From: Ruminococcus bovis
Lineage (GTDB): Bacteria > Bacillota > Clostridia > Oscillospirales > Acutalibacteraceae
DNA: 64,000 bases
NCBI RefSeq assembly: GCF_005601135.1
Contig: NZ_CP039381.1
Coordinates: 865,941-929,940 of the forward strand
Direction: 5' to 3'
Shown: positions 15,062 through 32,522 of the stretch, in pieces
Numbering within the stretch: the first letter of the stretch is position 1
Layout: each line of letters starts with the position of its first letter
Translations under genes and position numbers: made by a program
Notes under the pieces: generated by a model
The model's input: the letters and a program-made list of their open reading frames with translations, nothing else
Databases searched by the model: none
What the model was told of the DNA's origin: nothing

Positions 15062-15177
15062 GTTGGTGTCGATGACGCTGAGGGTCCACCTGTTCCCATC
15101 CCGAACACAGAAGTTAAGCTCAGTAGTGCCGAAGATAGTTGGCTGGAAGCGGCCTGTGAAAATAGGAAGACGCCAAC
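15062..15177 (+). rRNA. rrf: 5S ribosomal RNA
   Basis: The ends GTTGGTGTC (15062-15070) and GACGCCAAC (15169-15177) form the closing helix I. The internal consensus CCCATCCCGAACACAGAAGTTAAGCTC is recognisable across 15096-15121, as is the GCCGAAGATAGT arm. No 16S or 23S gene is adjacent, so this is an isolated 5S gene with its own promoter and terminator. Ends are placed by helix I and may be off by one or two bases. Confidence 0.96.
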
Positions 15178-15186
15178 ATCAACAAG

Positions 15187-17944: not shown

Positions 17945-18091
17945 CTACTTTTCATCATATATAACTTTCACCTTGCCGTAAGGTGTATTCATTACATATT
18001 TTCTTCTGTATTTTGGTTTAGCCTTTATCATCTTGTATATTGCTCTACCTGCATATCCGAAAAATATAAATAAACATAAATTTAAAATCAT
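17945..18091 (-). CDS. 48-residue single-helix membrane peptide
   Basis: I do not recognise a family. The start is the ATG at 18091, preceded by AGGGGGAT; a longer frame to 18154 would run through the promoter element. The peptide has one hydrophobic helix (about 2-20), then a very basic segment (KAKPKYRRKYV) and a C-terminal YGKVKVIYDEK. It is shorter than most annotated genes but has a clear ribosome site and its own promoter. That promoter carries the same 32-bp palindromic element found before the WYL/AEC/Nif11 operon, so the peptide is probably controlled by the same regulator. Confidence 0.65.
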   Translation of the reverse strand: MILNLCLFIFFGYAGRAIYKMIKAKPKYRRKYVMNTPYGKVKVIYDEK

Positions 18092-18140
18092 TGTAATCCC
18101 CCTAAAACTGTACCTCTTTAAGACAACTATATAATAACAT

Positions 18141-18172
18141 ATTAACTGTCCCAAAAATGGGACTTATCTTTT
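18141..18172 (-). promoter_or_regulatory. Palindromic operator/promoter element, copy 2
   Basis: This 32-base segment is identical to 20455-20486. It is centred on the palindrome GTCCCAAAAATGGGAC (18148-18163). On the minus strand it lies about where the -35 of the 48-residue peptide gene should be, with TATTATATAG following. It is proposed as the binding site of the neighbouring WYL regulator. Confidence 0.7.
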
Positions 18173-18206
18173 GTTTTAGGGAATTTTTTGAAAAAATTTT
18201 GAAAAA

Positions 18207-19211
18207 TTATTTATGATTATAAAGATTATTTACATCGGCAAGTTTCTTAGCATATTCATCAGCTACAAATTGAGGTGAAATAATCTTTACACTGTCACCA
18301 AAACCAAATAGCCAACCAAAGAACTGAGGGCTTAGATCCACCTTAGTAGTTACAAAGAAACTTTCTTCATCAGCCTTTGAGATAAAAACATTCTTTCCAA
18401 ATCTATCCATAACAACACCGATAAGGTCGTTTCTAAACAGTAGCTTAACCTCTACTTCATCACCACCGAACATACCAAAAACTTTCTTTGCATATGTAGC
18501 CGGATCACACTTTCTTTCTATGCCTTTTTTATCAATCTTTTCATCAAGGACTTCTATTTGAGCCATCTTGTCAACACGATAGTGCTTTATCATATTAACC
18601 TTACTGTCGTAACCGATTAGATAATAATTTTCATCATCAATAGCCAAAAACAGTGGTGAAATCTTGTACAGTTTATCTTTCTTCCTTAGAAGTGCCTTTG
18701 ACTTAGTATTAAAGTCAACTACCCAATGGTAATAGTTAAATGTAATTCTTTTACATTCATTAATAGCCTTGTGGATATTGTCTGTATTGTGGTAAATTTT
18801 CTCATTCATTGACTTTACACGATTAGCTACAACAACCTGTCTTTGAAGTTCTTTACCCTCATATTCGGAAGTCAGACTTTCTAACTTTTTAATTAGCTGA
18901 ACACTTTTTTTCTCGGTAATATATTTACTGCTTTGAATAGAATCCACAAGTAGCTTTAGTTCAGGCAATTCAAAGGTTCTGCCAAGTAATTTATAGGAAA
19001 CATCCTTGCTTTTATATTTATTAATATCAATGCCAAATTCCTGCAAAGTCTTTATATCCCTATAAACTGTCTTTCTCTCTACCTCAATATCATTTTTCTC
19101 TAAATAATCAATAATTTCATAAACATTCATACCATGGTCTTCATCTGTTTTTTCATAAAACATCTTAAGAAGATACAGTAACTTTTGCCTATGATTTTCA
19201 CTTCTTGCCAT
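18207..19211 (-). CDS. WYL-domain transcriptional regulator
   Basis: This 334-residue DNA-binding regulator has an N-terminal winged helix (about 5-60, VYEIIDYLEKNDIEVERKTVYRDIKTLQEFG) typical of DeoR/YobV-like proteins. A WYL ligand-sensing domain follows (about 150-225, KRITFNYYHW...KISPLFLAIDDENYYLIGYD) and then a C-terminal WCX-like extension (about 240-325). It is the last gene of a three-gene operon with the AEC permease (12 bases away) and a Nif11-like protein. Two copies of a palindromic element lie at both ends of this operon, suggesting autoregulation. WYL domains usually sense nucleotides or other small ligands; the ligand here is unknown. Confidence 0.9.
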   Translation of the reverse strand: MARSENHRQKLLYLLKMFYEKTDEDHGMNVYEIIDYLEKNDIEVERKTVYRDIKTLQEFGIDINKYKSKDVSYKLLGRTFELPELKLLVDSIQSSKYITEKKSVQLIKKLESLTSEYEGKELQRQVVVANRVKSMNEKIYHNTDNIHKAINECKRITFNYYHWVVDFNTKSKALLRKKDKLYKISPLFLAIDDENYYLIGYDSKVNMIKHYRVDKMAQIEVLDEKIDKKGIERKCDPATYAKKVFGMFGGDEVEVKLLFRNDLIGVVMDRFGKNVFISKADEESFFVTTKVDLSPQFFGWLFGFGDSVKIISPQFVADEYAKKLADVNNLYNHK

Positions 19212-19223
19212 AGAAACAACCCC

Positions 19224-20153
19224 TTATGCAAACATCTGTGAAATAGCAACAATAGTTGGCATTGTCACAATAGATGCAAGTGTTGTAGCAGAAACCAAGC
19301 TAACAGAAAGTGGTACATCTCTGTCATACTTTGTAGCAAACATTGTAGTTGTTGCTGCCGATGGTGCTGAAGTTGCAATAACTGTTGCCACAAGCATATT
19401 GCCCCTTACACCAAAGAGATAAAGCAAGAATAAGGAAACTAAAGGTATTGCCACTAACCTTACACCTATACATAGATAACTGTACTTATCGGTAAACATA
19501 CTTTTTAATGAAGTATTTGCAAGTTGACAGCCAACGATAATCATAGGTATAGGAGTATTTAATGCACCTAAATAATCAATAGGTGAATAAAGAATAGTTG
19601 GTAACTGAATATGGAAAACCCAAAGTAAAATTGCAATAATAACACCTACAATACCGGGATTTGTAATCAGCTTTTTAAGGCTAAGTTCCTTTTTGTCACC
19701 ACTCATTGTAACAAGGCCGTAGGTCCAAATAAATATGTTAAATGCTGCAACATAAATTGCACCGTAAAACACACCGTCATTGCCTAAAATAGCCTTTTGA
19801 AGTGGCAAACTCATAAACCCACAGTTTGAGAAAATACTGCCAACCCTAAGGACAACCTTCTTTGCCTCATCTTTGTTCCTAAAAATAAGAGTACAAACCA
19901 CTATACTGCCAATATGAATCAGTGCAACCGACAAAATCATTATAAACATATTAACCAGTTTATCACTTGTAAATTTACAATTTTGGAATGACACAATAAT
20001 AACACAAGGTGTTGCCACATAAAGGGCAAGGTTTGTTAAACTTTTTATGGCTTTGTCACTTATTAATTTAGCCTTTTTGCATACAAGACCAACACCGATA
20101 AGTATAAACAAAACCACTACTTGCTGACCTACAGTTAAGAAATTACTTATCAT
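19224..20153 (-). CDS. AEC-family permease (auxin efflux carrier type)
   Basis: This 309-residue inner-membrane transporter has about ten helices in two inverted halves. Family signs are the opening FILIGVGLVCKKAKLIS, TPCVIIVSFQNC, the crossover IPMIIVGCQLANTSLK and SAPSAATTTMFATKY near the end. Bacterial members export carboxylates such as malate or other anions. Its ATG overlaps the TGA of the Nif11-like gene (ATGA, four bases), so translation of the two is coupled. A permease coupled to a leader-type peptide is unusual, since mature peptides normally leave through ABC exporters; AEC is more likely to move a small metabolite. Confidence 0.88.
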   Translation of the reverse strand: MISNFLTVGQQVVVLFILIGVGLVCKKAKLISDKAIKSLTNLALYVATPCVIIVSFQNCKFTSDKLVNMFIMILSVALIHIGSIVVCTLIFRNKDEAKKVVLRVGSIFSNCGFMSLPLQKAILGNDGVFYGAIYVAAFNIFIWTYGLVTMSGDKKELSLKKLITNPGIVGVIIAILLWVFHIQLPTILYSPIDYLGALNTPIPMIIVGCQLANTSLKSMFTDKYSYLCIGVRLVAIPLVSLFLLYLFGVRGNMLVATVIATSAPSAATTTMFATKYDRDVPLSVSLVSATTLASIVTMPTIVAISQMFA

Positions 20154-20437
20154 TTCATTCCCTCCAATGATGCGAAAAACATATCATAGGCATCGTCCCA
20201 TCCGTCAATAGAACAAACACCACCACCGTTTACAGAACGCATCTTAGAGTCATTCATTTCTTGACCGTAAGCAAAAAGCTCACCAAGATAAATTTCATAT
20301 CCAAGGCTAATACAAGTGTCACAAAAACACTTCATAGGGTCGTCGGAATTCTTAGTTTCCAATAGCTTATTTCTTAAGTTTTCATCCTTACTTGCATCTT
20401 CAAGTAACTGCCTTAGCTTTTCTTCCACTACTTTCAT
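20150..20437 (-). CDS. Nif11-like leader-peptide-type small protein
   Basis: This protein has 95 residues from ATG 20437. The N-terminal 60 residues look like the Nif11-type leader (EEKLRQLLEDASKDENLRNK, then ISLGYEIYLGELFAYGQ). A GGG step follows (MRSVNGGGVCSIDG) and then a 20-residue acidic aromatic tail. This is the layout of RiPP precursors with Nif11 leaders, but no modifying enzyme or peptidase exporter is in the window, so it may be a conserved non-RiPP relative. AGGAG lies directly against the ATG, which is too close; GTG at 20428 (nine-base spacing) may be the true start. It is first gene of the operon, four bases overlapping the AEC gene. Confidence 0.65.
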   Translation of the reverse strand: MKVVEEKLRQLLEDASKDENLRNKLLETKNSDDPMKCFCDTCISLGYEIYLGELFAYGQEMNDSKMRSVNGGGVCSIDGWDDAYDMFFASLEGMK

Positions 20438-20454
20438 CTCCTATATAATATCAC

Positions 20455-20486
20455 ATTAACTGTCCCAAAAATGGGACTTATCTTTT
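20455..20486 (-). promoter_or_regulatory. Palindromic operator/promoter element, copy 1
   Basis: The palindrome GTCCCAAAAATGGGAC (20462-20477) sits inside a 32-base block identical to copy 2. It precedes the Nif11-AEC-WYL operon, with a TATTATATAG -10 region after it on the minus strand. The 5' leader before the ATG is only a few bases. Confidence 0.72.

Positions 20487-32445: not shown

Positions 32446-32522
<77 letters not shown>

Follow-up and report, generated by a model that had tools for sequence, protein, structure and literature searches.

WYL-domain proteins have been described as regulators of bacterial DNA damage responses and of phage defence, and here we compare the known cases with a WYL protein of Ruminococcus bovis, encoded between two copies of a 32-base-pair (bp) element in a 64,000-nucleotide (nt) stretch of contig NZ_CP039381.1 (positions 865,941–929,940; hereafter the window). 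DriD of Caulobacter crescentus is a homodimeric WYL activator of an SOS-independent DNA damage response; its site lies at a fixed distance from the −10 element, over a poor −35, and its targets comprise a division regulator/inhibitor, an endonuclease, recJ and dnaG (PMC12340889). The membrane protein DidA is under damage control and pauses division (PMC12340889). Mycobacterial PafBC is a WYL regulator of DNA-damage genes that is activated by single-stranded DNA (ssDNA) and acts via promoter DNA adjoining the part of sigma that reads the −35 (PMC11804915). WYL repressors of single defence loci are also known already: BrxR represses defence and has an inverted-repeat site downstream of the promoter, and Sll7009 acts on a type I-D CRISPR locus (PMC9122601). 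RspWYL1 of type VI-D CRISPR is an accessory WYL protein that boosts Cas13d activity (PMC6547453). In Marinomonas, a histidine kinase/response regulator controls I-F and III-B CRISPR (PMC8523701), and in Pseudomonas a single regulatory system coordinates immune systems (PMC11888443).

The WYL defence regulators that we surveyed each serve one locus or island, and the timing of CRISPR expression in bacteria is largely an open question. In the full-text literature searched, in which subscription journals and bioRxiv are thinly covered, we recognised neither an account of a WYL regulon uniting several CRISPR types with recombination repair nor a description of the tiny membrane peptide reported below. 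We favour, with some reservation, the reading that the window WYL protein is a DriD-like homodimeric regulator that joins recombination repair with CRISPR/restriction defence and, by analogy, would be activated by ssDNA.

The 32-mer, ATTAACTGTCCCAAAAATGGGACTTATCTTTT, occurs exactly twice in the window, at 18141–18172 and 20455–20486, where shuffled sequences predict no copy. A sequence-only reading of this DNA had noticed the pair, and it was also right that the window holds no further copy: the core palindrome GTCCCAAAAATGGGAC has no third occurrence even at three mismatches. A constant 11 nt separates the palindrome from TATTAT or TATAAT, itself preceded by TG, and this arrangement recurs in the genome (2.44 Mb, a single contig). 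The composite GTNC-N8-GNAC-N11-TATWAT has 12 matches against one for the reversed control; nine of the 12 are correctly oriented before host genes or operons, two (L169 and L174) lie within apparent mobile-element regions, and one (L176), which overlaps an open reading frame (ORF), is probably a chance match. Composites at L247:4819 and L248:4426 stand in surroundings that resemble mobile elements, where an ImmA-like/Y-family polymerase region was read by eye nearby and a sigma-like gene behind the element.

The window features concerned, all on the minus strand and with proteins measured in amino acids (aa), are the following.

20455–20486, core palindrome 20462–20477, minus strand: putative operator copy 1, in the promoter of the operon for the Nif11-like protein, the auxin efflux carrier (AEC) permease and the WYL protein, 11 nt upstream of TATTAT.
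20445–20450, minus strand: extended −10 TATTAT, preceded by TGA, 11 nt from the palindrome of copy 1.
20150–20437, minus strand: 95-aa Nif11-like protein, under curated cut-offs; its counterpart in genome G022 is 84% identical and in the same operon.
19224–20153, minus strand: AEC-type permease, 309 aa (PF03547, 4e-36).
18207–19211, minus strand: WYL-domain regulator, 334 aa, with winged helix-turn-helix (wHTH), WYL and WCX domains (PF13280, 3e-9; PF25583, 8e-7), the putative operator binder.
18141–18172, core palindrome 18148–18163, minus strand: putative operator copy 2, upstream of the 48-aa peptide.
18131–18136, minus strand: extended −10 TATTAT, preceded by TGT, 11 nt from the palindrome of copy 2.
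17945–18091, minus strand: basic peptide of 48 aa with a single hydrophobic stretch, homologous to WYL-adjacent peptides of relatives (54% identity in G022).

Both copies of the element point toward minus-strand genes, namely the 48-aa ORF and the 95-aa/AEC/WYL operon, which spans 20437 down to 18207. Among the domain labels proposed earlier, WYL (PF13280, with WCX) and AEC (PF03547) hold, and 'Nif11-like' falls below the curated cut-offs (PF07862, 15.1 versus 23.8 bits; TIGR03798, 20.5 versus 32.3). We rejected a Nif11-type precursor of a ribosomally synthesized and post-translationally modified peptide for the 95-aa protein on these scores and on the lack of a maturation gene among the six other ORFs scanned around it, which gave AEC, WYL, HD, DUF5662, DUF6465 or no match. 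Elsewhere in the window are a 5S rRNA gene (15062–15178) and tRNA genes at 32446 and 60265.

We laid out 15 sites of the R. bovis genome, ten with the 11-nt spacing and five without. A palindrome at 11 nt from the −10 is termed class A, and a site directly after the −10 or over the start class B. All ten class A sites have TGn ahead of the −10, and a search for a −35 element under them found none (0–2 of six positions match TTGACA at spacers of 16–18); lacking a −35, these promoters look activator-dependent. The genes behind the 15 sites are as follows.

Class A, window: the 48-aa peptide.
Class A, window: the Nif11-like/AEC/WYL operon.
Class A, L016: type I-C cas3, with csd1 (cas8c) downstream.
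Class A, L017: a protein with a sub-threshold SWIM match and a type IV methyl-directed restriction enzyme.
Class A, L018: an operon whose third gene encodes a radical-SAM protein that weakly matches one viperin model.
Class A, L021: cas12a.
Class A, L022: a 172-aa ORF without a Pfam match, then a cell wall hydrolase.
Class A, L024: an acidic ORF read as EF-hand-like, with no domain test.
Class A, L025: a 71-aa ORF, then sbcD and sbcC.
Class A variant with −10 TACAAT, L242/L252: addB-addA.
Palindrome without the 11-nt spacing, L020/L144: a cas9, 197 nt downstream of the site, type II-A as read from gene order.
Palindrome without the 11-nt spacing, L019: a TPR-GmrSD gene.
Palindrome without the 11-nt spacing: recA, with the site between a TTGACT/TATAAT promoter and the ATG, from which it is 36 nt away.
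Palindrome without the 11-nt spacing: lexA.
Near-symmetric palindrome directly after TATAAT, L241: a 224-aa ORF read as an NYN/PIN-type nuclease.

The five sites without the 11-nt spacing are weaker candidates for the regulon. AddA, SbcD, RecA, LexA and Csd1 clear an NCBIfam cut-off; AddB and SbcC give good model matches, yet under the curated cut-offs, and the 224-aa NYN/PIN-like ORF has no NCBIfam or PADLOC match. Next to the radical-SAM operon (L018:4005–10909) stand RtcB, a DUF2828/DUF7788 protein and, read as two ORFs, a WYL gene. At L019:6205–10934, the TPR-GmrSD fusion (927 aa) and a WYL gene of its own (360 aa) lie beside a second Cas9 locus with Cas2. Small acidic ORFs, read by eye as EF-hand-like, follow the element in two species (L024:4301 and, in G025, L026:1501), and a third small acidic ORF, with a hydrophobic stretch, is found near cas9 of G121 (L146).

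The element is linked to this WYL family in relatives as well. Homologues of the WYL protein at E ≤ 1e-10 were found in 44 of the 59 genomes sampled, R. bovis included, and within the genus they are mostly about 50% identical. The best 80 of 591 WYL loci from a scan of named genomes, together with 29 further loci, gave 109 loci, or 104 after removal of five duplicates. A composite lies at most 2.6 kb from the WYL gene in 29 of the 104 unique loci listed, as far as the flanks reach (32 matches versus two for the reversed control in the 109 loci, duplicates included). In 11 of these 29 the next ORF encodes a membrane peptide that is tiny and basic (MLNFCIF... and related sequences, 34–87 aa) and aligns with the 48-aa peptide. 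The trio of WYL gene, operator-promoter and homologous peptide thus recurs in 11 unique loci other than those of R. bovis and G022, which supports the sequence-only reading in placing the 48-aa peptide with the element. The 13 peptides aligned (these 11, R. bovis and G022) share a hydrophobic N-terminal part and carry a net charge of +3 to +12. The next ORF is the WYL gene itself in three of the 29 (L065, L101 and L141) and another small ORF, VNGHIEVYDxxGxFLFSAD..., in five; the remainder are mixed. This second tiny ORF (38–43 aa) stands behind the composite and beside WYL in L082, L086, L095, L106 and L115, all from other Clostridia. The module is also present at L073 in Anaerotruncus colihominis DSM 17241, a gut bacterium that can be cultured.

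The spacing was scored independently of the composite. We took 210 strand-wise occurrences of GTMC-N8-GKAC in the relatives' loci, with both strands read, and scored TATWAT at distances of 0–40, a design that avoids circularity; TATWAT occurs 20 times at 11 nt and at most five times at any other distance. With a looser −10, the composite has 32 matches against none for the reversed control in 1.26 Mb of loci from other genomes, of which seven sit in loci fetched by the motif itself (L026, L029, L249 and L250, two of them viral) and 25 do not. Of 36 unique AEC-WYL gene pairs, 16 also have a palindrome upstream, always after a TATAAT-like hexamer and in 10 of the 16 at exactly 6 nt from it; the hexamers were called with one mismatch, at most 22 nt upstream and without a shuffled control, and it is the shared 6-nt distance that speaks against chance. 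The bare palindrome occurs in WYL loci at 0.087 per kb (0.090 for the reversed control), a rate that predicts about 1.3 copies for all 36 upstream stretches together.

Among the loci listed, G022 has the WYL protein most similar to that of the window (62% identical) and repeats the layout: the element precedes the 95-aa homologue there, and the peptide is preceded by a one-base variant, in which ATCCCATTTATGGGAC is followed by 11 nt and TATAAT. Conservation of the exact core throughout the genus was rejected: GTCCCA-N4-TGGGAC is found in eight of 59 genomes, R. bovis included, with a −10-like hexamer at 11 nt only in G025, G027 and R. bovis, and relatives' cores have diverged (GTACNAAAATNCGGAC, GTCCGTTTTATCGGAC). 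Residue 51, in the helix-turn-helix (HTH), is R in R. bovis, T in G022 and one of D, N, S, E and G in the remaining orthologues read; that it changes alongside the site is suggestive. Judged from sequence, the element is probably the binding site of the window WYL protein.

The 334-aa protein has the architecture of WYL regulators, a wHTH followed by WYL and WCX, with Pfam scores of 37.2 bits for PF13280 (cut-off 21.8) and 29.7 for PF25583 (cut-off 23.9); HTH_11, at 22.3, is just under its cut-off of 25. Only H210, R212, D214, K215 and M216 of the WYL core are invariant in 16 aligned orthologues. The AlphaFold2 model has a mean predicted local distance difference test score of 75.7 and a predicted template modelling score of 0.41, and in it three helices (82–93, 100–112 and 116–124) separate the N-terminal domain from the WYL strands. 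The best Foldseek matches are the DriD structures 8tp8, 8tpk and 9pfv (E 3e-14 to 6e-12 over about 350 columns; 2.8e-14 for 8tp8), with a template modelling score of just about 0.33, a root-mean-square deviation of 17–19 and an identity of about 17–18%. PafBC follows in the fold ranking, and then BrxR and CapW, a defence-associated WYL repressor. By sequence profile, the protein matches five PDB entries, four of them named DriD. Some WYL models of PADLOC carry the label of CRISPR-associated signalling, and the PADLOC Cas3c model PDLC01766 (1009 positions) is covered by the WYL protein at 31–317 and by the Cas3 of the genome at 327–1003, which suggests that fused or joined forms exist elsewhere.

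We infer from these data that the WYL protein (18207–19211) binds the element as a homodimeric, DriD-like transcription factor. The pseudo-palindrome of about 16–20 bp, 11 nt before an extended −10, would replace the missing −35 and make a regulator-dependent promoter. DNA damage or invasion would supply a nucleic-acid ligand for the WYL domain, by analogy most likely ssDNA, and the ligand-bound dimer would recruit or anchor RNA polymerase at class A promoters. The ancestral regulon probably comprised the WYL gene, autoregulated via a site over its start, and the tiny membrane peptide, which may pause growth or division as DidA, likewise small, does. In R. bovis the element is also found ahead of addBA and sbcDC, the type I-C cas genes, cas12a and type IV restriction, and perhaps of a cas9 and GmrSD; recA and lexA have start-site or upstream sites. 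By analogy the regulon most likely works in the manner of DriD and with its geometry. We rank activation above repression because DriD and PafBC are the nearest folds and because class A promoters combine 0–2 of six −35 matches with TGn; a dual role as activator and repressor is possible.

Several observations weigh against this reading. The core palindrome has five exact copies in the genome, but GTCCC-N6-GGGAC occurs nine times against four for the reversed control, the core at up to two mismatches 17 times against 11, and a flank-extended one-mismatch search gave no overall excess (72 versus 79). Since the bare palindrome is thus only about 1.5–2 times its control, it was dropped as the significant unit in favour of palindrome, 11 nt and −10 together. 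Covariation between half-sites, which would have spoken for a dimer site, did not exceed what column composition gives. Five of the 15 sites, those of recA, lexA, cas9, GmrSD and the NYN-like gene, lack the 11-nt promoter, and addBA also has a TTGACA element, whose −10, as read from the sequence, would overlap the operator. Upstream of cas9 in the second Cas9 operon (L251, L019) no GTMC-N8-GKAC palindrome is present. The four CRISPR-Cas operons encountered in the genome divide into two with the composite, one with the palindrome alone and one, read in L251, with none.

Conservation at the cas promoters of relatives is patchy. A strict composite stands in two of 14 non-own Cas3 loci (G084, 168 nt before the gene, and G110) and is absent from the two nearest Cas3 relatives, G090 and G034. 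It points toward cas9 in one of five non-own Cas9 loci (G022, 448 nt before the gene), the locus of G121 having an imperfect site and a strict one pointing away, and it occurs in neither of two non-own Cas12a loci, one of which matched as a fragment; several of the contigs end near the gene. The −36 site of recA is present in three of the 30 recA loci read (R. bovis, G022 and G071; two of 29 without R. bovis), drawn from 97 genomes with recA, and is absent from G072, whose RecA is also about 92% identical. At the WYL operon itself, 20 of 36 AEC-WYL pairs have no palindrome upstream, and the site is class A in R. bovis, class A and B in G022 and class B in the other 15 site-bearing promoters, a mixture that is awkward for a single fixed sign of autoregulation.

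In a rival reading the regulator and the regulon are unchanged but the WYL protein represses, with an apo-dimer over the −35 region or start and release by an infection or damage ligand. BrxR, and Sll7009 on its type I-D CRISPR locus, are precedents (PMC9122601). Class B sites directly follow the −10 at 16 of 36 AEC-WYL promoters (with G022 in both classes), at recA and at the NYN-like gene; at AEC-WYL and at recA, where the site lies downstream of a good promoter, the geometry fits repression, and a switch between classes A and B among relatives is easiest to understand if both positions repress. The geometry of class A fits activation instead. Repressor sites usually allow many positions, and the dominance of the 11-nt spacing (20 versus at most five) thus counts against repression, as do the missing −35 elements and the activators among the nearest folds; we regard a purely repressing WYL protein as rather unlikely.

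That another protein reads the element, either LexA or the product of one of the genome's two further WYL genes, seems improbable to us. Variants of the site do occur at lexA and recA, a second WYL gene (30% identical) lies beside the GmrSD site, and the third, in two ORFs, is near the radical-SAM site. LexA boxes of Firmicutes read GAAC-N4-GTTC, however; the element is GTMC-N8-GKAC, and the lexA promoter has a separate LexA-type box, AAACATTTGTTTG (read by eye), so the element was rejected as a LexA box and LexA is disfavoured as its reader. Other Clostridia, moreover, have the element next to genes of the window WYL family, and in L065, L101 and L141 it immediately precedes the WYL gene. Least probable by far is a local two-operator autoregulatory circuit of the Nif11-like protein, the permease, WYL and the peptide. 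The identity of the window copies across 32 bp would suit it, but the 12 composite promoters versus one control in the genome, most of them before other operons, led us to reject a regulon confined to the window. The small regulon that the sequence-only reading had proposed gives way for the same reason, and a signal common to peptide, permease and Nif11-like protein is no longer the main story, as repair and CRISPR/restriction operons share the element. That reading had held that an element widespread away from WYL genes would refute it; such is literally the distribution, which we take as enlarging the regulon.

The composite is also found in viral sequences. Contig IMGVR_UViG_3300031994_000017 (L250:8309–9593) has four copies of palindrome, 11 nt and TATAAT, each before a 61–73-aa ORF with a near-identical leader, and this virus may use the switch of its host. 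As a general phenomenon viral copies were rejected: a first scan gave two matches, near a rough chance estimate, and a second gave 72 contigs, of which 71 are single-copy and only L250, with four, stands out. Five viral contigs (L324–L328) encode relatives of the WYL protein that are 47–49% identical.

Returning to the DriD-like activator, a regulon in which one WYL protein governs both several CRISPR types and double-strand-break repair would, if true, explain a shared command over unrelated defence operons, and palindrome, 11 nt and extended −10 make an exact and testable promoter. It would suggest DriD-like responses in Clostridia, in which the tiny membrane peptide that recurs with the element might act as a checkpoint of division or growth. 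More tentatively, a single ssDNA-sensing WYL activator might be the master switch of recombination repair and immunity in this lineage. DNA breaks, or intermediates of phage DNA, would then induce AddAB, SbcCD, a growth-arrest peptide, type I-C and V-A CRISPR, type IV restriction and perhaps a type II system. Unrelated CRISPR types would be 'damage-gated' via one promoter element, which newly acquired defence operons would recruit and which may have been copied by one virus or more for its own genes.

Of the published systems compared, DriD is closest. It shares with the window protein the order wHTH, WYL and WCX, is its nearest solved fold and has the same overall arrangement with a linker/three-helix bundle; in both systems the spacing between a pseudo-palindrome and the −10 is constant and the −35 that it covers is poor (PMC12340889). 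The sites differ, GTCC-N8-GGAC-type here and ATACGAC-N7-GTCGTAT in DriD, and the genes here extend to CRISPR-Cas, restriction, addBA and sbcDC; ssDNA sensing would be carried over by analogy. The window peptide, known by its tiny, basic and hydrophobic character and its promoter alone, is compared with DidA on those grounds. PafBC likewise ties a WYL protein to DNA-damage genes, but it is a heterodimer with a −26 promoter motif, in an account that nowhere uses the word palindrome, unlike the single WYL gene and palindrome found here (PMC11804915). The 334-aa gene has one WYL match and is neither a PafBC-type heterodimer nor a double-WYL fusion, and the genome's two further WYL matches are found beyond the window. 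RspWYL1 shares the link between WYL and CRISPR, but as an accessory protein and not through a promoter regulon (PMC6547453). The Marinomonas and Pseudomonas cases also set one regulator over several immune systems (PMC8523701, PMC11888443), whereas here the regulator is a WYL protein and repair genes are included. With BrxR and Sll7009 the window system has in common a WYL protein, an inverted repeat and a phage-defence target, and with BrxR a site downstream of the promoter, as at the AEC-WYL promoters of relatives; those repressors are described for one island or locus each, and the sites here are chromosome-wide and include repair genes (PMC9122601).

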